Positions 1-29,501 of a stretch of DNA of 32,961 nt are shown here, piece after piece. Each line of letters starts with the position of its first letter. Position 1 is the first letter of the stretch. The notes under the pieces were generated by a model that was not told where the DNA came from, ran no database searches, and was given only the letters and a program-made list of their open reading frames with translations. The stretch covers positions 1 to 32,961 of the forward strand of contig JAHEFX010000013.1 of the NCBI GenBank assembly GCA_024639975.1. Reading direction: 5' to 3'. Source of the DNA: a bacterium. Its GTDB lineage: Bacteria > Actinomycetota > Acidimicrobiia > Spongiisociales > JAENVV01. Made by a program: the position numbers and the translations under genes.

Positions 1-313
1 CTGGGTGGACCGTTCAGCGGTCTCCATCAGGGCCTTCCCCGGTGATGGTCCGCCGACAGGGAGACCCCTGGCCGAGCACACCCGTGGCCATCAGCGAACA
101 CCCCGCGCCGCCACAGCGTGGCGCCACACAGGTCAGGACCCTGGCCGTTGCCGGGCACTGGTGCCTCCTCCAGTGTCATCGGTACTCCCTCTCGGCGAAC
201 CTATCACCGCAGATCATCCCGAACCCGCCTAACAGGCCACTAACAAGCCACGAGGGTCTTCGCCTGCCCATGTGTTGTGGCTGTACCCTCGCCGGGGATC
301 CGGGACGGAGGGA
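1..313. other. Left-edge stretch with no supportable gene
   Basis: I find no convincing coding sequence, RNA or repeat in these 313 bases. A minus-strand ATG at 27, preceded by a GGGGAAGG purine run, could be the start of a gene leaving the window, but only nine codons are visible. A TACCCT hexamer at 284-289 followed by GGAGG at 307-311 is the likely promoter and ribosome-binding region of the plus-strand gene starting at 314. Confidence 0.5.
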
Positions 314-2869
314 ATGGACGGCGGACAGACCTTGGCGACGTTCGTGTTCACAGACATCGTCGGCAGCACACGCCTCTGGCAACGCCACCCCGATGACATG
401 CCGGTGGCGTTGGAACGTCACGACCAGATCATCCGTGAAGCCGTTGCCAGCGAGGGTGGCTTCTGTTTCGCCGGCGGTGGCGACGGGTTCGGTGCCGTCT
501 TCGAAGCACCCCGCGCTGCGGCGGCCGCAACAGCAAAGGCCCAAGCTGGCCTGTCGAACCTCGAAGTCGGTGGAGATCGACTGGCGGTCCGGATGGGGAT
601 ACACACCGGGGAAGCGCAGGAGCGGGGCGGGGACTTCTTCGGACTGACCGTCAACCGGGCCGCCCGCATCGCATCGGCCGCCAACGGCGGCCAGATCCTC
701 GCCTCGGCTGCCACCGGTGCGCTCCTCGACGGCGACATGCCGCTCGTGCCGCTCGGGACGTATCGCCTCGCCGATCTTTTCGAACCGGTCGAACTCGTCC
801 AGATAGGGGCCGGTTCGTTCCCGCCGGTGCGGGCGCTCGACCCCGACAAACACAATCTGCCGGTTCGCTTCACATCCTTGATCGGCCGCGAAGCGCTTGT
901 GGATCGAGTGACCACCGAACTCGCCGACGGGCGGCTCGTGACACTGGTTGGGCCGGGCGGAATCGGCAAGACGACCGTGGCACTGGAGGTCGCCGCAAAC
1001 CTCGTTCCCGAGACTGACCGGGGTGTGTGGTTCGCCCCCCTCGACGAGGTGGCTCCAGACGCGCCCATCGACTCGGCGGTCGCCGCCGCGTTGGGGATGG
1101 CACCGATCGAAGGGTGGCGACGAACTGCCGCCGGGCGTGACCAGCTGGTCGTCTTGGACAACGCCGAACACGTCATCGGACAAACAGCTGGCACCGCCGC
1201 TTCGCTCCTCCGGGCCGGTCCGGCGATCCGGTTGCTGGTCACCTCTCGGGAACCCCTCGGCGTGCCCGGAGAATCGGTGATCGACGTGCCACCACTCGAC
1301 GACCACGACACCGTCGACCTGTTCGTCGACCGCGCCAACGTCGACTCGGCTGACACCGACCTGGTCGCCGGCCTCGCCGCCCGACTCGACGGCCTTCCAC
1401 TCGTCGCCGAGCTCGTCGCTGCCCATGCCACTCGCCTACCACTGACAGACCTGTTCGCGTCGCTCGACACCCACGGGGTGGGGGCCCTGACCAGTCGGGG
1501 AACCAGTCCCCGGCACCAATCGGCCACGGAGGCGATTGCGTGGTCGTACGACCTCCTCGAACCCGCCGAACAAGCCGCATTTGAACGACTGGCAGTGTTC
1601 GACGGCACCTTCACCATCCGCAACGCCGCAGACCTCGCCGACGCATCGACCGCCACGATCCATGGGCTGGTGGAGAAGTCACTCATCCAGCGATCCGGTG
1701 ACCGCTACCGCCTCCTTGAACCGATCAAGGAGTACGCGACGGCCCGCCTGGCGGCCAGGGGTGGCCTCCAACCGGCCCGTCGACGACTCGTCGAACTGGT
1801 CGCTGACGCTTCCTTCGAGATCGACGCACAGCATGGCCCGAGGAACTACGAAGCCTGGGCCACCGAGTTCGACTGGGCTCCCGGCGACCTCGTCGCCGCG
1901 TTCGAGTGGGTCGGCACCGCAGACCTCGAGCTCGCCGCACGGCTCATCCGATCGATCCCCGGTGGCCTCGCAACCACTGCGCCTGATTGGCAAGCAGAGA
2001 TCCCGATCGTCGACGCCCTCACGCCGATCGCCGATCGGTGGTCGACCAGCCCTGGTCGATGGCGGTGGGAGCTGCTCCGGTGCGCGTTCGCGGAGAGCAT
2101 GGTGTGGCGCGAGTCCGACGCCCAAGCCCGAACCGCGGCTCTCCGCTCGCTACCCGAGGCCCAAGAGGACCCCGAGTTCATGGCGGCCTGCGCCTTTGTG
2201 CGCCTAACCGCGACTGCCGCCCAACCCCTCCCTCTTGACGAGACCGAGGCCCTCGCCGATGAGATCATCACTCTCGACAGCCGGTACGGCTGGTGGGAAC
2301 CGGGCATCGCACACGGCATCCTCGGAAGCCGCTACTTGCGGCACGGACGCCACGACGAGGCCCGCCAGAAGCTCCTCCAAGCCCTTGACGACCCCACCCT
2401 CAAACCACAAGCCCGGTGGCTGACGCTCTCCGACCTCGCCGAAACCGAGGTCTTCTCCGGCCATCCCGAGCGAGCGTTGGAGCGACTCGACGCCATCGAC
2501 ACCGACGACGTGGACGTGCTGCGCGAAGTGACCAACGAGAAGGCCCACGCGTACGTGGCACTCGGCGAGCTCGACGTCGCCTGGCAGCACCTCGAGCCGC
2601 TCATCGCACACGACCTCGCTCAGACACAACCCACCACCATCTCATTCTGCGCCGCCGCCGACTACTTCCGAGCCAAGGGTGAGCACCGAACCGCAACCTG
2701 GTTCATGGCCAAGATGCTCGAAGGTCGCGGACCCAGCCACCGCACCCACGAACGGGTCATCGAAGAAGCCCGGACCCACCTCGGCGATGCCATTTTCGAG
2801 GTTGAGTTCGATCGCGGGGCAGCCATGGACATCTACAGCCTCTACGGGCTCCTGACCGAAGGCCCCTGA
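314..2869 (+). CDS. Class III cyclase-homology domain fused to STAND ATPase and helical-repeat region
   Basis: 851 aa. Residues 5-165 form a class III adenylate/guanylate cyclase homology domain: FTDIVGST with metal Asp14, GGGDGF with second metal Asp57, and VNRAAR with transition-state Asn114 and Arg118. Residues 185-400 are a STAND/NB-ARC-type NTPase, with Walker A GPGGIGKT at 213-220, Walker B LVVLDNAE at 278-285 and a later TSRE sensor-like motif. The remainder looks like TPR-type helices. No LuxR or other DNA-binding domain is visible. The Lys and Asp that select adenine in true adenylyl cyclases are replaced (FAGGGDGF, GLTVN), so cyclase activity is doubtful. The likely role is as a signalling ATPase. 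I start at ATG 314, not the upstream ATG at 272, because GGAGG sits just before it and FVFTDIVGST should lie near the N-terminus. It stands alone. Confidence 0.8.
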   Translation: MDGGQTLATFVFTDIVGSTRLWQRHPDDMPVALERHDQIIREAVASEGGFCFAGGGDGFGAVFEAPRAAAAATAKAQAGLSNLEVGGDRLAVRMGIHTGEAQERGGDFFGLTVNRAARIASAANGGQILASAATGALLDGDMPLVPLGTYRLADLFEPVELVQIGAGSFPPVRALDPDKHNLPVRFTSLIGREALVDRVTTELADGRLVTLVGPGGIGKTTVALEVAANLVPETDRGVWFAPLDEVAPDAPIDSAVAAALGMAPIEGWRRTAAGRDQLVVLDNAEHVIGQTAGTAASLLRAGPAIRLLVTSREPLGVPGESVIDVPPLDDHDTVDLFVDRANVDSADTDLVAGLAARLDGLPLVAELVAAHATRLPLTDLFASLDTHGVGALTSRGTSPRHQSATEAIAWSYDLLEPAEQAAFERLAVFDGTFTIRNAADLADASTATIHGLVEKSLIQRSGDRYRLLEPIKEYATARLAARGGLQPARRRLVELVADASFEIDAQHGPRNYEAWATEFDWAPGDLVAAFEWVGTADLELAARLIRSIPGGLATTAPDWQAEIPIVDALTPIADRWSTSPGRWRWELLRCAFAESMVWRESDAQARTAALRSLPEAQEDPEFMAACAFVRLTATAAQPLPLDETEALADEIITLDSRYGWWEPGIAHGILGSRYLRHGRHDEARQKLLQALDDPTLKPQARWLTLSDLAETEVFSGHPERALERLDAIDTDDVDVLREVTNEKAHAYVALGELDVAWQHLEPLIAHDLAQTQPTTISFCAAADYFRAKGEHRTATWFMAKMLEGRGPSHRTHERVIEEARTHLGDAIFEVEFDRGAAMDIYSLYGLLTEGP

Positions 2870-3089
2870 TCCCATCGTTCCGCACGGCCTCCCGGCAGTG
2901 AGGGAGACGCCCGAGGGGTCGACAGCTTGAACGAAAGCCATCCCCACCTGTCGATCCGCTCCTACGGAACCGCCTCCAAACGTGGCGCTCGAGTCGGACT
3001 GCCAGCGCCCGTACCGCGCCTGTCCTCCTTCGAAAGGTAACCAGCCCTCCCGCCGGCGGCGGTAGGCCTGATCCAAGGGGCGATTTCGC

Positions 3090-3166
3090 TGGTGGAGCTG
3101 ACGGGATTTGAACCCGTGACCCCCTCGTTGCGAACGAGGTGCTCTGCCGAACTGAGCTACAGCCCC
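3090..3166 (-). tRNA. tRNA-Ala (anticodon CGC)
   Basis: Read on the minus strand, the sequence folds as a complete cloverleaf. The 7-bp acceptor is GGGGCTG with CAGCTCC (one G-U pair), the D-arm is GCTC/GAGC, and the anticodon stem CCTCG/CGAGG holds loop TTCGCAA (anticodon CGC, reading GCG). The T-arm is ACGGG-TTCAAAT-CCCGT, the discriminator is A, and the CCA end is encoded (3090-3092). It lies 42 bp downstream of a cytochrome c remnant on the same strand. Confidence 0.97.
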
Positions 3167-3208
3167 GAAATGGGATGAAGATTGTATCCGGGCAAGGCCG
3201 ATAGCCCG

Positions 3209-3400
3209 CTACTGGGTCAGCAGGAAGGCAACCAGCTCTTCCAACTCCTCCTGCGAAATCGTCCGACCGATCACCCGGGGCATCACATCGTCATAGCCCT
3301 CGACCAGGTGAGCCCCGGGCTCCATGATCGACTCCTCCAGGTAGTCGGAAGCCGAGAGCCCTTCGACCCGGTCGGCGGCCCGTTCGGCGATGCCTTGCAT
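3209..3400 (-). pseudogene. 5'-truncated cytochrome c domain remnant without the haem-binding motif
   Basis: The 63 residues from ATG 3400 match the C-terminal half of a class I cytochrome c: a GIAERAADRV stretch, then YLEESIMEPGAHLVEGY, then VMP with the expected axial Met, and a final helix EELEELVAFLLTQ. The N-terminal half, including CXXCH, is absent. The open frame continues upstream only into a Pro-rich stretch and then runs out of frame under the GlpR-like gene. I looked in the overlapping frames for CXXCH and found none, so a simple frameshift does not explain the loss. It is most likely a decayed remnant, though a haem-free small protein made from ATG 3400 cannot be excluded. It lies between the GlpR-like gene and tRNA-Ala, all on one strand. 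Confidence 0.6.
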
Positions 3401-3485
3401 GGGAGGACCTTGGGTGGGTGAGATCCCCGGGGTTTCAGGTCCCTCTGGACCAGGGGGCTCCGGGAAGCCGTCCCGAGTGGGCTGA

Positions 3486-3908
3486 TCAGCCGGCGATGAC
3501 GCGGACTTCGGCGATCTCGGCAGGCACCTGGCTGTGGGCCCGAACAAGATTGGAGTGCTGCTGCTGGCGGCGCAACTGCACGAGCATCGCGACGTACCAA
3601 GCGAGGAATGCGTCGACCAATAGGTGAGCAACGAGGACCCAGACACTGGACGTCAGCACCGCTGCCACGAGCGTCCCAAGAGCGAGCGTCCCGACGACGA
3701 CCAGCGCCCGACGGCGACGAGCGTTGGTGGCGGCGCGGGCCGCAGCTGCCTGCGGACCACTCTGGGAAATGGAAAGGCGAGCAGAGACCTCGTCGTAGCG
3801 CTGGGTGGACATGAGCGGCGCTTCGCGACGGGCTTCGATGAGCGACGGTAGGAGGAAGAGGCCCCACACGGCCGCGATCACAAGGACGAAGATGATGAGG
3901 TTGTTCAC
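3486..3908 (-). CDS. GlpR-like membrane protein (putative receptor of gephyrin-like MoeA)
   Basis: 140 aa. It has an N-terminal membrane segment (residues 3-21), a polar loop (about 25-67) containing MSTQRYDEVSARL and a run of arginines, then a hydrophobic hairpin (68-110) and a charged tail. In corynebacteria, the membrane receptor GlpR, encoded near the MoeA paralogue Glp, links Glp to the division machinery. Topology and position at the end of a moeA-moaC-moaB cluster match that family. The assignment rests on layout and pattern, not on a measured similarity. Start choice is uncertain. GTG 3908 overlaps the stop of a 30-codon mini-ORF by GTGA, while TTG 3944, with GAGG seven bases upstream, would add 12 residues. 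Confidence 0.6.
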   Translation of the reverse strand: MNNLIIFVLVIAAVWGLFLLPSLIEARREAPLMSTQRYDEVSARLSISQSGPQAAAARAATNARRRRALVVVGTLALGTLVAAVLTSSVWVLVAHLLVDAFLAWYVAMLVQLRRQQQHSNLVRAHSQVPAEIAEVRVIAG

Positions 3909-3997
3909 AAGAGTTCGAGAAGAGTGGACTTCAGGGGTGCCCAAGAATAGGCCTCAACTGCGCTGTAGACCAGCCCGCTTCGTGCCTTCTCTCGCAT
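3905..3997 (-). CDS. Possible 30-aa leader ORF ahead of the GlpR-like gene
   Basis: ATG 3997 is preceded by TAACGT and exactly seven bases, the leaderless-promoter spacing seen repeatedly in this window. The frame ends in TGA within GTGA, whose GTG is a candidate start of the next gene. The product would be a 30-residue peptide starting MREKARSGL. Third-position GC is clearly lower than in neighbouring genes, so it may be a regulatory leader or simply 5' UTR. No function is recognisable. Confidence 0.3.
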   Translation of the reverse strand: MREKARSGLVYSAVEAYSWAPLKSTLLELL

Positions 3998-4004
3998 CGC
4001 GGCG

Positions 4005-4010
4005 ACGTTA
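4005..4010 (-). promoter_or_regulatory. Probable -10 element (TAACGT) internal to the plsY-moaB cluster
   Basis: TAACGT lies seven bases upstream of ATG 3997, in the 103-to-139-bp gap between moaB and the GlpR-like gene. It suggests that the GlpR-like gene can be transcribed independently of the moa genes. Confidence 0.4.
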
Positions 4011-4047
4011 CCACCGGGTGTCCCTCGGGCAACGGATCTTCGCGCGC

Positions 4048-4518
4048 TCAGTGGTCGGTGTTCCCCGCCAGAAGCGCCAATGCGTGGGGCAGCACGGGTA
4101 CGACCACGTCCATGCACTCACGCACGGCGCGTTCGGAACCGGGCAGATTGATGATCAGGGTCGACCGCTTGATGCCGGCGATCCCACGCGAGAGCATCGC
4201 GTGGGGCGTCTTCTCGAGCGACATCGCCCTGATCGCCTCCGCGATACCCGGGACCTCGCGCTCGATGACCGACCGCGTCGCCTCCGGTGTCAGGTCCCGC
4301 TCGGAGACACCGGTGCCACCTGCCGTGACGACCAGCGGCCGCCGGATCACGATCGCATCGCGCAGCGCAGCCGAGACCGATTCGATGCCATCTGGTACCA
4401 CTCGCAGCTCGGCCTCGATCCCGGCTGCGGCAAGCAGCTCGACCGCGGCCGGGCCGGCCGTATCGATCGCCGTTCCCGCCGACACCCGATCCGAGACCGT
4501 CAGGACCAAGGACCTCAT
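4048..4518 (-). CDS. moaB: MoaB/Mog-type molybdopterin adenylyltransferase-family protein
   Basis: 156 aa, the usual size for single-domain MoaB/Mog. These proteins bind molybdopterin and, in the Mog branch, adenylate it before molybdate insertion. Visible signatures are TAGGTGVSERDLTPEA (residues 65-80) and SRGIAGIKRSTLIINLPGS (110-128), the two substrate-binding loops of the MoCF fold, which is shared with domain 3 of the MoeA encoded upstream. The start at ATG 4518 overlaps the moaC stop by ATGA, implying translational coupling. A GTG three codons upstream (4527) is possible. It is the last gene of the coupled plsY-moeA-moaC-moaB unit. MoaB and Mog cannot be separated by eye. Confidence 0.93.
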   Translation of the reverse strand: MRSLVLTVSDRVSAGTAIDTAGPAAVELLAAAGIEAELRVVPDGIESVSAALRDAIVIRRPLVVTAGGTGVSERDLTPEATRSVIEREVPGIAEAIRAMSLEKTPHAMLSRGIAGIKRSTLIINLPGSERAVRECMDVVVPVLPHALALLAGNTDH

Positions 4519-4982
4519 CGCTGCCACTCCCCTGAACGGCCACCTGACTTCGCGAGCAGCCGGATCGGGCCGATGGTCGCACCACGTTGGACGCCCTTGA
4601 CCATGTCATAGAGCGCCAGGGCCCCGGCCGAGACACCTGACATCGCCTCCATCTCCACCCCGGTCCTGCCGGACGTCTTGGCGGTGACCTCGATCCGAGC
4701 GCCGACTCCGCTTCGCTCGACCACGACCTGCACGCCGGTGAGCGGCAACGGGTGGCACAGCGGGATGAGATCGGCCGCCTTCTTCGCGCCGCCGATCGCC
4801 GCGATTCGCACAACGGCGAGGGCATCGCCCTTCGGGAGCCCACCGGAGAAGAGGAGGTCGGCAGTCGAGTCGTCGAGGTCGACGAATGCCTCGGCCACGG
4901 CGACCCGCTCGGTCACCTCCTTGCCTCCGACGTCGACCATGTGGACGTCACCGTCATCGGTGAGGTGTGTCAGCTCGGTCAT
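4515..4982 (-). CDS. moaC: Cyclic pyranopterin monophosphate synthase MoaC
   Basis: 155 aa, full length. MoaC converts the MoaA product (3',8-cyclo-7,8-dihydroGTP) into cyclic pyranopterin monophosphate, the first stable intermediate of molybdenum cofactor synthesis. The family active site is intact: Lys51 in PKGDAL, LIPLCHPLPL at 72-81, the GVEMEAMSGVS loop (109-118), and Asp126 and Lys129 in YDMVKGV. ATG 4982 overlaps the moeA TGA as ATGA, which decides the start over an in-frame ATG eight codons upstream inside moeA. No moaA, moaD or moaE is present in this window, so the rest of the pathway must lie elsewhere. Confidence 0.96.
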   Translation of the reverse strand: MTELTHLTDDGDVHMVDVGGKEVTERVAVAEAFVDLDDSTADLLFSGGLPKGDALAVVRIAAIGGAKKAADLIPLCHPLPLTGVQVVVERSGVGARIEVTAKTSGRTGVEMEAMSGVSAGALALYDMVKGVQRGATIGPIRLLAKSGGRSGEWQR

Positions 4983-6199
4983 GGAGCCATCCTCGTCGCG
5001 GGCCACTGGAACATCTCGAGTTCGACCTCTCGGCCCGACGCCACGTCACCGATGCCTTCGGGCACCACGATGAAGCAGTTGCCATTGGCGACCGCCGAGA
5101 GCATGTTCGACTGCTGGCGCTTGGATGGCGTTGCCACCCACCTGCCATCGCCGTACTCCGACCGGGCTCGGACGAAGACGGTCTTGGCGGGATCCGTCGA
5201 GAGGTCCTCCGAGGACGTCCCTCGGACGCGCGGTCGCAGGATCGCGGCGCTTCCCATCATCGTGAGGAGGGCGGGTCGCAGGAACTGCTCGAACGCGACC
5301 ATCGAGGAGACCGGGTTGCCCGGCAGCCCGAAGAGCGGTGTCTTCCCTACCCAACCGAAGGCAAACGGCTTGGCGGGCTGCATGGCGACCTTCCAGAAGT
5401 CGACCGTCCCTTGCTCGGCAAGCACCTGCTTCACGAGGTCGTGGGTACCCATCGACACCCCGCCCGTCGTCACGACGACGTCGGCGCGGTCGGCTCCGTC
5501 CGACAGCGCCGAGCGCAGGGCAGCCGCGTCGTCGGGGACGATTCCCAGATCGATCGATTCCGCGCCGAGCTCCGCGAGCAGACCGGAGAGGAGGGGTCGG
5601 TTGGCGTCGCGGATCTTCCCCGGAGCAAGATCCTTCGTCTCGGGTGGGACGACCTCGTCACCCGTCGACATGAACGCGACCACAGGACGCCGGCGGACCG
5701 GAACCTCGGTCACCCCCAGGGCGGCAAGGACACCGAGATGGGCAGGGCTGAGACGATCGCCGGCGGACACGACGGTCGTGCCCCCCGCCACGTCTCCGCC
5801 GGCGGCGCGCACGAACCGGCCCGGGGCGACACCCTCGAGGATCCGAACGGTGCCACTTCCGTGCTCGACCTGCTCCACGGGGACGATGGCATCGGCGCCG
5901 GCGGGGACCGGCGCACCGGTCATGATCTGGATGGCGGTGCCCGGTCGTACCTCGGCACCGCTTTCGTAGCCCGCCCGAAGGTCGTCGACGACCGTCAGGT
6001 CGACAGGGGTCTCCGCAACGTCCGCTGCCCGCACCGCGTAGCCATCCATGGAAGAGTTCGGGAACGGCGGCAGGTCGTGGCCGGCGACGACGTCCTCGCC
6101 CAGCACGAGTCCCAGTGACTGGCGCAGGGAAACCCGAACGACGGGATTCGCCTCCATGGCTGCCAACACATCCCGGCGTGCCTCGTCCAGCGGCCGCAT
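4979..6199 (-). CDS. moeA: MoeA / gephyrin-like molybdotransferase (Glp-type candidate)
   Basis: 406 aa, full length. MoeA inserts molybdate into adenylated molybdopterin. Motifs: SMDGYAVRA (50-58), the MTGAPVPAGADAIVPVE stretch (93-109), the MoCF-fold loops STGDEVVP (178-185), TTGGVSMGTHD (244-254) and FGLPGNPVSS (290-299), followed by a C-terminal beta domain. The start at ATG 6199 shares one base with the plsY stop (TGATG). Reading the frame further upstream gives only a spurious extension across plsY. Linkage to a GlpR-like membrane protein raises the possibility that this copy is the corynebacterial-type Glp that works in cell division, as well as or instead of in cofactor synthesis. Co-transcription with moaC and moaB argues that it keeps the cofactor role. 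Confidence 0.95.
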   Translation of the reverse strand: MRPLDEARRDVLAAMEANPVVRVSLRQSLGLVLGEDVVAGHDLPPFPNSSMDGYAVRAADVAETPVDLTVVDDLRAGYESGAEVRPGTAIQIMTGAPVPAGADAIVPVEQVEHGSGTVRILEGVAPGRFVRAAGGDVAGGTTVVSAGDRLSPAHLGVLAALGVTEVPVRRRPVVAFMSTGDEVVPPETKDLAPGKIRDANRPLLSGLLAELGAESIDLGIVPDDAAALRSALSDGADRADVVVTTGGVSMGTHDLVKQVLAEQGTVDFWKVAMQPAKPFAFGWVGKTPLFGLPGNPVSSMVAFEQFLRPALLTMMGSAAILRPRVRGTSSEDLSTDPAKTVFVRARSEYGDGRWVATPSKRQQSNMLSAVANGNCFIVVPEGIGDVASGREVELEMFQWPATRMAP

Positions 6200-6849
6200 C
6201 AGTCGTCCTTGACGATGGTCGATTCTTCGCGGCCGAGGATCCGTCTGATGTTCGGCGCGTGTCGGAAGAGGACGAGGACGACGACCGCCGTGACCCAGAC
6301 GAGCGAGCCGAACGGCGTGATGTCGACGGTGCCGAGTGGTCCGGTGAACCAGTAGGCGACCGGGGTGAGCAGCAGGACCGTCAGCGAACCGATGGAGGCC
6401 GTGCGGGTGATCGCCACCAACAGCGCCCAGAGGCCCCCGAGCGCGAGTCCCAGGATCGGGTTGAGGAACACCAGGACGCCCAGGGCCGTCGCAACCCCCT
6501 TGCCACCCTTGAACTTGTGGAGGATCGGGAAGCAATGGCCGACCACGGCGAGGAAGCCGGCGAGAGCGGACAGCCCCCAGCCCGAGAGGACTCCCCCGGC
6601 CGGCTCTGGCAGGAGCACGAAGCCGATCGCCGCGGCGATCGTCCCCTTGAGGAGGTCGCCGACGAGCACCATGGCCGCGGCACCCTTGCCGAGCGTCCGG
6701 GCAACGTTGGACGTACCCGGGTTTCCCGACCCGACCTCGTAGATGTCGACCCCTCGGGCTCGTGCCACCCACACGGCGAAGTCGACCGATCCGAGGAGGT
6801 AACCGACCACGACGGCGAGCGGGATTGCGAGCCCGGGAGAGAGGTCCAT
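6199..6849 (-). CDS. plsY: Glycerol-3-phosphate acyltransferase PlsY
   Basis: 216 aa integral membrane enzyme that acylates glycerol-3-phosphate from acyl-phosphate, the first step of phosphatidic acid synthesis in the PlsX/PlsY route. Conserved loops are GSGNPGTSNVAR (40-51) and GHCFPILHKFKGGKGVAT (104-121), with a further polar loop near 150. About five membrane helices separate them. Length is typical, with a short charged C-terminal tail. The gene begins the plsY-moeA-moaC-moaB cluster. A TACACT hexamer seven bases before the ATG and no Shine-Dalgarno sequence suggest a leaderless transcript. Confidence 0.96.
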   Translation of the reverse strand: MDLSPGLAIPLAVVVGYLLGSVDFAVWVARARGVDIYEVGSGNPGTSNVARTLGKGAAAMVLVGDLLKGTIAAAIGFVLLPEPAGGVLSGWGLSALAGFLAVVGHCFPILHKFKGGKGVATALGVLVFLNPILGLALGGLWALLVAITRTASIGSLTVLLLTPVAYWFTGPLGTVDITPFGSLVWVTAVVVLVLFRHAPNIRRILGREESTIVKDD

Positions 6850-6856
6850 CGCTGCG

Positions 6857-6862
6857 AGTGTA
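6857..6862 (-). promoter_or_regulatory. -10 element (TACACT) of plsY, leaderless spacing
   Basis: TACACT on the minus strand is followed by CGCAGCG and then the plsY ATG. With transcription starting about seven bases after the hexamer, the mRNA would begin at the start codon. Confidence 0.55.
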
Positions 6863-6914
6863 CGAGCGCCGGGGCCCGCTGTACGGCGCTCGTCGACCTA
6901 CCATGCCCGGCCCA

Positions 6915-7115
6915 ATGCCGACCTACGTGTATCGCTGTGCTCGCTGCGAGGAGGAGTTCGACGTCTTCCAGTCGTTCTCCGACAAGGAGCTGACCACCCA
7001 CGACGGCTGCGGCGGAGACCTACGGAAGGTCTTTCACCCCTCGCCGATCGTCTTCAAGGGCAGCGGTTTCTACAAGACGGACTCCCGCACGGGCAGTTCG
7101 TCGGACGACGACTAG
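6915..7115 (+). CDS. FmdB-family small zinc-ribbon protein
   Basis: 66 aa. It starts with the family hallmark MPTYVYRCARCEEEFD and has the LRKVFHPSPIVFKGSGFYKTD segment typical of FmdB/CxxC regulatory-type proteins, followed by an acidic Ser/Asp tail. The first zinc knuckle, CARC (residues 8-11), is intact. The second is HDGC where most members have CPxC, so the site may be Cys3His. Function in this family is not established; FmdB was named as a putative regulator of formamidase. ATG 6915 gives the canonical N-terminus, and an ATG at 6903 would add four residues. It ends in a CTAG shared with the stop of the convergent SAF gene. Confidence 0.88.
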   Translation: MPTYVYRCARCEEEFDVFQSFSDKELTTHDGCGGDLRKVFHPSPIVFKGSGFYKTDSRTGSSSDDD

Positions 7116-7630
7116 CCCCCGGCGAGGACCACGAGCTGGTTGCTGCGGGCAGCAGCTGCCACCAGCGCGGAGGCGGACTCCGGCACGGCCACGGCCCCCG
7201 GTGAGCCGCCGAGCCTTCCGGCACTCCCCCGCACCACCACCCCCTCGACCAGGGTCGCCTCCAGTGCCCCTGTTGCCGTCACGGCGACCCGCACCGGCCC
7301 GCCCACCACGGCTCCGGGCGGCACCTCGACCTCGACGACCCACCATCCCTCCGGGACCGGGACGTCCGTCAGGTGCGACGGGAGCAGCGGCTCCCCCTCC
7401 GCGACATCGACCCGGAGCACGCCATGGGGCACCGTCACCGGGAGGACTCTGGACGCGACCCGGCGCCAGCGGATGTCGGCTTCGTCGACCGGCGTTCCGG
7501 CGACGAGCTCACTGCCGGCATACGGATACTCGGTCGTCGGTTCCGGTACGAGGTCCCAGGTCACGGCCGCGAGGACGAGGAGCGCTGCGGCGACGTACCG
7601 CCGGGTCGGAGGAGGTGCCAACCAGTACAC
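7112..7630 (-). CDS. SAF-domain protein, CpaB/RcpC-like, membrane anchored
   Basis: 172 aa. There is one N-terminal membrane segment (about residues 10-27), then a SAF-type beta-clip region: AGSELVAGTPVDEADIRWRR-like text followed by VAEGEPLLPSHLTDV is the usual pattern of CpaB/RcpC proteins. The remainder is a Val/Ala-rich beta domain facing outside. CpaB proteins act in Flp pilus assembly, but no other pilus gene is nearby, so that role is not supported here. The start is GTG 7630, with TACGGT five bases upstream. It converges on FmdB, and their stop codons overlap as CTAG. Confidence 0.7.
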   Translation of the reverse strand: MYWLAPPPTRRYVAAALLVLAAVTWDLVPEPTTEYPYAGSELVAGTPVDEADIRWRRVASRVLPVTVPHGVLRVDVAEGEPLLPSHLTDVPVPEGWWVVEVEVPPGAVVGGPVRVAVTATGALEATLVEGVVVRGSAGRLGGSPGAVAVPESASALVAAAARSNQLVVLAGG

Positions 7631-28512: not shown

Positions 28513-28662
28513 TCAGCCGATCACGCCGCCGTCGTCGAGCATCCGGCCGAGGTACTCGAAGGCGAACGCGAGGACGACGAGGACGACCACGAGGATCAGC
28601 GTCGCCTCGATCGCCTTGACCGGCGTCGAACCGGGAAGCGCATCCCACATCCGTCTCAGCAT
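28513..28662 (-). CDS. 49-aa membrane peptide coupled to sortase E
   Basis: ATG 28662 shares a base with the sortase TGA (TGATG), the same coupling as plsY-moeA and acnA-orn. The product has a basic N-terminus (MLRRMWDALPGSTPVKAIE), one hydrophobic helix (about 20-36, ATLILVVVLVVLAFAFEYL) and a short acidic end. No LPXTG or LAXTG motif is present, so it is not an obvious sortase substrate. It may be an accessory of the sortase. The family is not recognised. Confidence 0.7.
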   Translation of the reverse strand: MLRRMWDALPGSTPVKAIEATLILVVVLVVLAFAFEYLGRMLDDGGVIG

Positions 28663-29501
28663 CAGGCTGCTCCTTGCTCGGCGAAGTACCGGGCGTTGGG
28701 TCCGGATACCAACTCTGCCACCACGACGAGGCGTTGGCGCGATGAGAACTCCGGGTGACAGGTCGTCAGGGTGAGGAAGGCCCCCTCCAGTGGGTCGACC
28801 ACCCACAGGGAGGTGGCATCGACGGCCATCCACCCGGCATCGTCGCCGACGTCGATCATCCTGGTTTCTTCGTGAATGGTCCTCGGGTCGCGCACGACGT
28901 AGACGTGGGTGCCGATCGCGGTCTCCACGATGATTGGGTCACCTGCTCGGATCTCGTCCAAGCGGTTGAACGGAGCGCCGTAGGTCGTGCGGTGCCCGGC
29001 AATGGCGGCATTGCCCCACTGGCCGGGAACGGGCGACTGGGCGTAGTGGCCCGGCCCCCGACGCAGGTTGCCGAGGTCCTCGCCTTCCCGAACGACGAAG
29101 GTGAGCCCGTCGTTGACCAGGTCGTCGAGGGCGGCGTCACCGGTGTTCGTCGTCGCTCCGAGGCTTGGGAAGCTGATGACGGCGAAGGCCTCGCCGGTTC
29201 CAGGGATCGGCTCGTTCGTGAGGACCGCCGGGCCCTCGAACTCGATCGACCCCTCGTCCACGAGACCGTCTTCGGTGATCGGGACGGTCTCGGGCTGGTC
29301 GGGGGCCTCTCCGCCTTCTTCGTCCAGCTCGGACCGCACCTCGTCGAAGTACGTGTCGACCTCCTCGGTGGCGGCGTTCTGCTCGGCGGAGGTGATGAGA
29401 CCGGTACCCCAGAGCTGCCAGGCCAGGAAGGCGAAAATGAGGACGCCAGCCCAGATCATGGTCCAGCCGATCCCCCGAATCACGCGGATTGCTCCCGTCA
29501 T
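28662..29501 (-). CDS. Class E sortase
   Basis: 279 aa. An N-terminal membrane anchor (12-31) is followed by an acidic linker (about 38-100), then the sortase barrel with catalytic His170 (AGHRTTYGAPF), Cys248 (TLTTCHPEF) and Arg255 (SSRQRLVV). GPGHYAQSPVPGQWGNAAIAGHR is the class E pattern common in high-GC actinobacteria, which usually recognise LAXTG-type signals. No sorting-signal protein is in the window, so it may serve as a housekeeping enzyme. ATG 29501 has TACGCT seven bases upstream and no Shine-Dalgarno sequence. It is coupled to a 49-aa membrane peptide. Confidence 0.93.
   Translation of the reverse strand: MTGAIRVIRGIGWTMIWAGVLIFAFLAWQLWGTGLITSAEQNAATEEVDTYFDEVRSELDEEGGEAPDQPETVPITEDGLVDEGSIEFEGPAVLTNEPIPGTGEAFAVISFPSLGATTNTGDAALDDLVNDGLTFVVREGEDLGNLRRGPGHYAQSPVPGQWGNAAIAGHRTTYGAPFNRLDEIRAGDPIIVETAIGTHVYVVRDPRTIHEETRMIDVGDDAGWMAVDATSLWVVDPLEGAFLTLTTCHPEFSSRQRLVVVAELVSGPNARYFAEQGAA

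Follow-up and report, generated by a model that had tools for sequence, protein, structure and literature searches.

In Corynebacterium glutamicum, the MoeA-like protein Glp binds both the FtsZ tail and the membrane protein GlpR, which itself binds Wag31, and glp is described as having arisen early in Actinobacteria (available sections of Martinez et al. 2023, PMC10522489). In Streptomyces, the protein SepX has been described (PMC8748795, in part). According to the available sections of a 2025 account, bacteria with Glp carry no fewer than two MoeA copies, Actinobacteria have systematically kept at least two, and catalysis was lost in Glp, which would make it a case of repurposing and not of moonlighting (PMC11733289). 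Here, we compare these systems with a 32,961-nucleotide stretch (the window; contig JAHEFX010000013.1, assembly GCA_024639975.1) from a metagenome-assembled genome (MAG; 2.35 Mb, 84% complete) of the order Spongiisociales (hereafter, the order), class Acidimicrobiia, in which a short membrane protein gene follows moeA, moaC, and moaB. Judging from sequence comparisons, we favor, with a probability of roughly 0.55, a partnership between a GlpR-type receptor and a bifunctional MoeA, ancestral in origin and gephyrin-like in principle.

The membrane protein is almost certainly a divergent, shortened member of the SepX/GlpR family, as profiles and synteny indicate. It matches all four NCBIfam SepX_GlpR models, albeit weakly (E values, 2.3e-5 to 0.01) and below the curated cut-offs (24.4 of 160 bits and 18.7 of 110 bits). 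The gene is conserved in 118 of 138 order genomes at an E value of ≤0.01, a count that uses the single window sequence as the query. At the same threshold, 30 of 32 order members match SepX_GlpR_4, 29 match SepX_GlpR_1, 27 match SepX_GlpR_2, and 7 match SepX_GlpR_3, while every family outside SepX_GlpR is matched by one member alone. Furthermore, a hidden Markov model (HMM) was built from order sequences only (67 of 71 loci; in L056, L057, and L059 the contig ends where the gene is expected, and L062 has moeA alone) and run against 3,784 six-frame open reading frames (ORFs) from 32 loci chosen by SepX_GlpR_4 in other genomes. It gave 24 matches with E values of <10 in 24 loci, every one at the SepX/GlpR position and 22 with E values of <1e-3; the scores were 1.7e-9, 7e-7, and 6e-6 in Streptomyces-type loci and reached 8e-20 in other groups. 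The labels Streptomyces-type and mycobacterial-type are tentative assignments that draw on the length of the proteins and on how closely they resemble C. glutamicum Glp; as an example, the MoeA of L113 matches Glp (8bve) at an E value of 2.3e-159. Reversed ORFs gave one match at 0.19 and five shuffles none. The eight missed loci comprise two true mycobacterial-type GlpRs (L115 and L116) and six others that we judge to be spurious SepX_GlpR_4 matches since no moe genes occur there.

It is important to consider that small, basic, three-helix membrane proteins could resemble each other by chance, with no homology to SepX/GlpR. Such an explanation would accord with scores far under the NCBIfam cut-offs (24 of 160 bits) and with the low, composition-driven matches that do occur, but it is highly improbable in view of the 22 matches confined to the SepX/GlpR place, a level that no reversed or shuffled ORF attained, and of the gene neighborhood shared with SepX/GlpR loci. 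The cut-off itself discriminates little in this setting, as none of 149 phylum genomes reaches that of NF050101 in a six-frame search and the C. glutamicum control likewise falls below it. Specific residues are also common from the window protein to mycobacterial-type GlpR, with W15 invariant and P21, R65, Y105, and L109 nearly so. The Pfam identities SLATT, PRA1, and TgpA_N were discarded for this protein, all being under the cut-off (E values, 0.0045 to 0.5). A structure search with the GlpR model returned no match at an E value of ≤0.001 (15 rows at ≤10), as expected given the poor model (mean predicted local distance difference test [pLDDT] score of only 67.5) and the lack of a solved relative.

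The initial annotation of the window, made from the letters alone, had placed a membrane protein with GlpR topology after moaB, at the end of a moeA-moaC-moaB cluster. Coordinates and Pfam matches bear out this gene order, and the positions given then for the cytosolic loop were right. Hydropathy and the positive-inside pattern predict a first transmembrane (TM) helix at about residues 2 to 24, a cytosolic loop at about 25 to 65 with an RRRR cluster, TM2 and TM3 at about 66 to 113, merged into one hydropathy segment, and a 27-residue tail. The AlphaFold model has long helices at 2 to 28, 52 to 86, and 89 to 126. The loop has 38 residues in this prediction (charge, +3), and the tail has a charge of +1. 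Conservation among Acidimicrobiia GlpRs centers on a juxtamembrane APLxST..F/Y motif, the RRRR cluster, and the extreme C terminus. There, 24 of 31 representatives (<70% identity) and 35 of 48 complete sequences show the pattern [VIL][RKHQ][VI][VIL][AS] no more than three residues from their end, against 0.04 expected when the last 28 residues are shuffled, and the residues ahead of the pattern vary. As a phylum-wide signature, this motif was ruled out: tails are conserved inside lineages and differ between them, with VRVIAG in the order, PRAAGQ and PRAANE in Actinomycetes types, and VRLRRWEA in f21. Lineage-specific C termini of this kind were seen at L123, L125, and L143 (VRLRRWEA) and at L120 and L198 (tryptophan rich, WDDQWLKR-like). 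The tails look as if each docks to a pocket of its own. We regard the C-terminal tail, in addition to the loop at 25 to 65, as a candidate docking site.

The gene neighborhood links the lineages. In the window, plsY, moeA, moaC, moaB, and the GlpR-type gene form a series on the minus strand. Order loci read plsY-(galU)-moeA-moaC-(moaB)-glpR, where galU denotes a nucleotidyltransferase gene (Pfam PF00483) between plsY and moeA that the window lacks; glpR lies downstream in 29 of 33 order MoeA loci taken from named records (L031 to L063). Other families of the same class have galU-moeA-moaA-moaC-glpR, Streptomyces-type loci have galU-moeA-moaC-moaB-rimJ-glpR, and mycobacterial-type loci have galU-moeA-rimJ-glpR. 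Given this common gene order, orthology with SepX/GlpR is the simplest reading. Across 149 phylum genomes, with GlpR scored by profile A2 (E value, ≤1e-6), 69 have both GlpR and MoeA, 4 have GlpR only, 59 have MoeA only, and 17 have neither (Fisher P = 0.004, kinship ignored). The shared neighborhood and the presence of the family in the order uphold the proposal that the GlpR-MoeA association predates Corynebacteriales, a greater age that is already published in part, in the available text on Streptomyces SepX (PMC8748795) and on early glp (PMC10522489). Word searches of the literature linking Acidimicrobi- to SepX, the Glp receptor, or FtsZ/divisome returned nothing, and Supplementary Table 3 and Fig. 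5c of PMC10522489 may already mark GlpR in Acidimicrobiia.

The MoeA beside glpR has the features of an enzyme. The window protein retains D59, T100, E188, D228, GGVS, and D259 (E. coli active-site numbers, supported by titles of mutant structure entries). All six active-site positions are intact in the glpR-adjacent MoeAs of 34 of 35 order rows (L061 has a gap in the motif) and 35 of 37 elsewhere in the phylum, compared with 0 of 4 of the mycobacterial type. The window MoeA carries glutamine in place of E. coli K279, as do most order MoeAs, so that its catalytic activity is a presumption. In the MoeA tree, order MoeAs form their own branch (SH-like approximate likelihood ratio test [SH-aLRT] support, 96), outside the Actinomycetes rows and not in the Glp clade; the approximately unbiased test did not reject a larger clade uniting every glpR-linked MoeA with two Actinomycetes paralogues (P = 0.64).

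This enzyme is, furthermore, mostly present as one copy. The window MAG has one MoeA_N match, in keeping with the single moeA noted initially and with the suggestion that it may be bifunctional. By hand count, a single match occurs in 104 of 130 MoeA-bearing order genomes (2 to 4 in the other 26) and in 50 of 69 phylum genomes with GlpR and MoeA, so the statement of at least two copies, in the available text of PMC11733289, does not describe these lineages. In some order genomes, a tandem extra moeA pair was observed, at L165, L167, and L172 (G040, G001, and G116); one of the two belongs to a long open frame that includes a GGTSKGxGD site and may encode a MoeA fusion.

The best evidence that glpR-linked MoeAs might act beyond catalysis comes from relatives and not from the window, namely, two genomes of one family, G158 and G173. 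In G158 (100% complete), moaA and moaE were not found, and the cluster, devoid of moaC, reads galU-moeA-glpR; its MoeA no longer has the GGVSxGxxD stretch, the threonine of MTGAP, or the lysines around 275 to 282. In G173, five of the six positions are degraded in the MoeA next to glpR, and a second, intact MoeA lies near moaA. The two degraded proteins group together (SH-aLRT, 96), their sister being the intact L234 of G143, and mycobacterial-type MoeAs lie elsewhere in the tree. A noncatalytic MoeA has hence been kept beside glpR in a second lineage. The pseudo-MoeAs of this family, which is separate from the mycobacterial-type genomes, were observed at L227, L236, and L253, in the presence of another, intact MoeA as well as in its absence. 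Order genomes that lack MoaA were also considered as cases of MoeA without the cofactor pathway and dropped: G058, G137, and G120 have MoaE, so MoaA is probably just missing from their assemblies, and G127 lacks both MoaA and MoaE but is 82% complete.

Several observations weigh against the partnership, some of them in the proteins themselves. The window MoeA has a short domain IV hairpin, VFVRARSEYGDGRWVATPS, without the FtsZ-binding loop of Glp (M361..Y369). Compared with mycobacterial-type Glp, where the hinges were located by the domain borders given in PMC10522489, it lacks the double-proline hinge, having RRRPV versus HPRPR at hinge 2 and ANPVVR versus APRPVR at hinge 1; Streptomyces-type MoeA also lacks the long hairpin but has the HPRPR hinge. 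The window MoeA model (mean pLDDT, 90) adopts the closed form, with a root-mean-square deviation of 2.1 to 3.4 Å to E. coli MoeA entries and 6.3 to 6.7 Å to Glp, although this form may be a default, as no Glp was in the input alignment of the model. By published signatures (FtsZ loop, proline-rich hinges, lost active site, and clade), the window MoeA is not Glp. On the receptor side, the long acidic intrinsically disordered region 1 (IDR1) and basic IDR2 of C. glutamicum GlpR are absent from the window protein; both are treated here as traits of the founder and not as family defining, the NCBIfam model SepX_GlpR_4 covering only 176 positions. The order-only HMM matches mycobacterial-type GlpR at E values of 0.007 and 0.025, which are not significant on their own given the reversed-ORF match. 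Thus, the Glp-GlpR module first proposed for this locus holds for its GlpR half and for a neighborhood equivalent to galU-glp-rimJ-glpR but not for its Glp half.

Other contrary observations concern GlpR in genomes where its partner is missing or distant. Four of 21 MoeA-less phylum genomes have GlpR. Two of these, G193 and G270, have MoaA and MoaE and fragmented assemblies. G147 and G167, 94% and 99% complete, keep GlpR with no MoeA, MoaA, or MoaE found, and this absence of MoeA looks genuine, so MoeA is not needed everywhere. In G147, glpR directly adjoins galU, moeA and moaC being gone, and in G001, which belongs to the window's family, about 350 kb separate glpR and moeA. These cases, together with several phylum genomes in which the two genes are apart, suit the alternative that this is a true SepX/GlpR acting in division without MoeA, its adjacency to moeA being a relic of an old galU-moeA-moaC-glpR gene order; the available text of the SepX paper reports neither a MoeA partner nor direct FtsZ contact (PMC8748795). 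However, the dead MoeAs beside glpR are hard to explain without a nonenzymatic role of MoeA, and Glp-GlpR binding was measured in C. glutamicum (PMC10522489, in part), leaving this alternative unlikely. Even less probable is that the protein is an accessory of cofactor synthesis, such as a membrane tether for MoeA or MoaB, with no division role in the order and a division use derived later. The tight operon with moeA, moaC, and moaB, the intact MoeA, and a moaA found in 127 of 138 order genomes would agree with an accessory, but family members persist in the near-complete G147 and G167 without MoaA, MoeA, or MoaE, and SepX and GlpR localize to the septum in two genera that are only distantly related (PMC8748795 and PMC10522489, in part).

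The partnership that we prefer builds on directly established ground: family membership, common gene order, an intact active site, a mostly single copy, and active-site loss in two lineages. The GlpR/SepX-type protein would be a membrane receptor to which the MoeA of its own cluster binds, presumably through the receptor's C-terminal tail, although FtsZ or DivIVA might be the target of that tail instead. A single MoeA would both make the molybdenum cofactor and serve, bound to GlpR, as a membrane scaffold, the division site being its probable location. The FtsZ of the window genome ends in SDDDLGIPSFVQG, and order FtsZ tails end in ..DDL(D/G)IPSFVQG-like peptides. The partnership would have come first and the catalytically dead Glp of Corynebacteriales later. 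More tentatively, and with some doubt on our part, Actinobacteria might have begun with a bacterial gephyrin, an active MoeA docking on a small GlpR/SepX receptor via the receptor's tail. This arrangement would survive in Acidimicrobiia-type and many other lineages, catalysis having been dropped at least twice (in the mycobacterial type and in the G158/G173 family) after a second MoeA was gained or the cofactor pathway lost.

What this adds to the published model (duplication first, a noncatalytic Glp, and at least two MoeA copies) is the presence of GlpR beside one intact MoeA in a majority of the lineages examined. With a GlpR orthologue next to one intact MoeA in the greater part of its genomes, a deep lineage offers a natural test of true moonlighting in bacteria, and the G158 and G173 pseudoenzymes are a second, distinct example of a MoeA whose active-site residues were lost next to the presumed receptor. 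The minimal 140-amino-acid receptor and its candidate docking peptide lend themselves to structural work. These results hint at a link between enzyme and division that long predates the group where it was first recognized, and a receptor-first order, if true, would reverse the published duplication-first account.

Table 1. Features of the moe-glpR cluster in the window
Feature	Position	Strand	Basis and remarks
plsY (glycerol-3-phosphate acyltransferase)	6199..6849	-	Pfam PF02660; upstream gene of cluster
moeA	4979..6199	-	Pfam MoeA_N, MoCF_biosynth, MoeA_C; active-site residues intact
moaC	4515..4982	-	Pfam PF01967, TIGR00581
moaB/mog-type gene	4048..4527	-	Pfam PF00994
GlpR/SepX-family membrane protein, 140 aa, GTG start	3486..3908	-	NCBIfam SepX_GlpR models, order-wide conservation, profile and synteny
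GlpR cytosolic loop, residues 25-65	3714..3836	-	Alignments; conserved APLxST..(F/Y)xR..L motif, RRRR ahead of TM2; net positive
GlpR C-terminal tail EVRVIAG, residues 134-140	3489..3509	-	Conserved; candidate docking motif
MoeA active-site stretch GGVSMGTHD, residues 246-254	5438..5464	-	Alignment
MoeA domain IV hairpin, residues ~341-360	5120..5179	-	Short; lacks the LMRD..T..YLV loop through which Glp binds FtsZ

A scan of 2900 to 7200 for promoters and terminators found none, with nothing beyond the shuffle level. Just downstream of the cluster lies a tRNA-Ala gene (CGC anticodon; 3090 to 3166, minus strand), and a short ORF between them (3209 to 3412) has only a weak cytochrome c match. 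Elsewhere, the window encodes an 865-amino-acid protein that has a guanylate cyclase domain and weakly matches STAND NTPases (272 to 2869, plus strand) and a sortase-domain protein with an N-terminal hydrophobic segment (28662 to 29501, minus strand). Among the related loci, the gene after glpR in L031 (6220 to 6849, plus strand) and L133 (6588 to 7241, minus strand) encodes a related helical protein of about 210 amino acids with no Pfam match at 1e-5, presumably translin-like; the glpR of G001, gone from the moe cluster, still keeps this neighbor. Relatives of the window MoeA mostly bear the label Acidimicrobiia. Two MAGs titled Acidobacteria and Armatimonadetes (L052 and L060) carry an Acidimicrobiia-type cluster and MoeA, for which reason their labels are probably wrong.

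At the family level, the window protein resembles C. glutamicum GlpR (Cgl0885; Martinez et al. 2023, PMC10522489) in its three TM helices, cytosolic loop, and tail, and in an adjacent MoeA homologue within a galU-moeA..glpR neighborhood. It differs in its 140 amino acids, against several hundred, without IDR1 and IDR2, in a partner MoeA that appears catalytically intact, and in having moaC and moaB instead of rimJ. Streptomyces SepX (Bush et al. 2022, PMC8748795) belongs to the same NCBIfam family and was found by the order HMM; the loci that we assign to the Streptomyces type by inference share the cluster galU-moeA-moaC-moaB-(rimJ)-sepX and an intact MoeA, whereas their proteins have about 430 to 454 amino acids, long disordered regions, and a tail ending in ..RAANE instead of ..VRVIAG. 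The window MoeA shares the MoeA fold and the gene neighborhood with C. glutamicum Glp (PDB 8bve/8bvf) but not its lost active site, long FtsZ-binding loop, proline-rich hinges, or open dimer. Finally, animal gephyrin is a MoeA-type enzyme that also clusters a membrane receptor, which would be the same principle if the partnership is true; unlike gephyrin, the protein described here has no MogA fusion, its receptor is unrelated, and the binding is a proposal drawn from the comparisons above.

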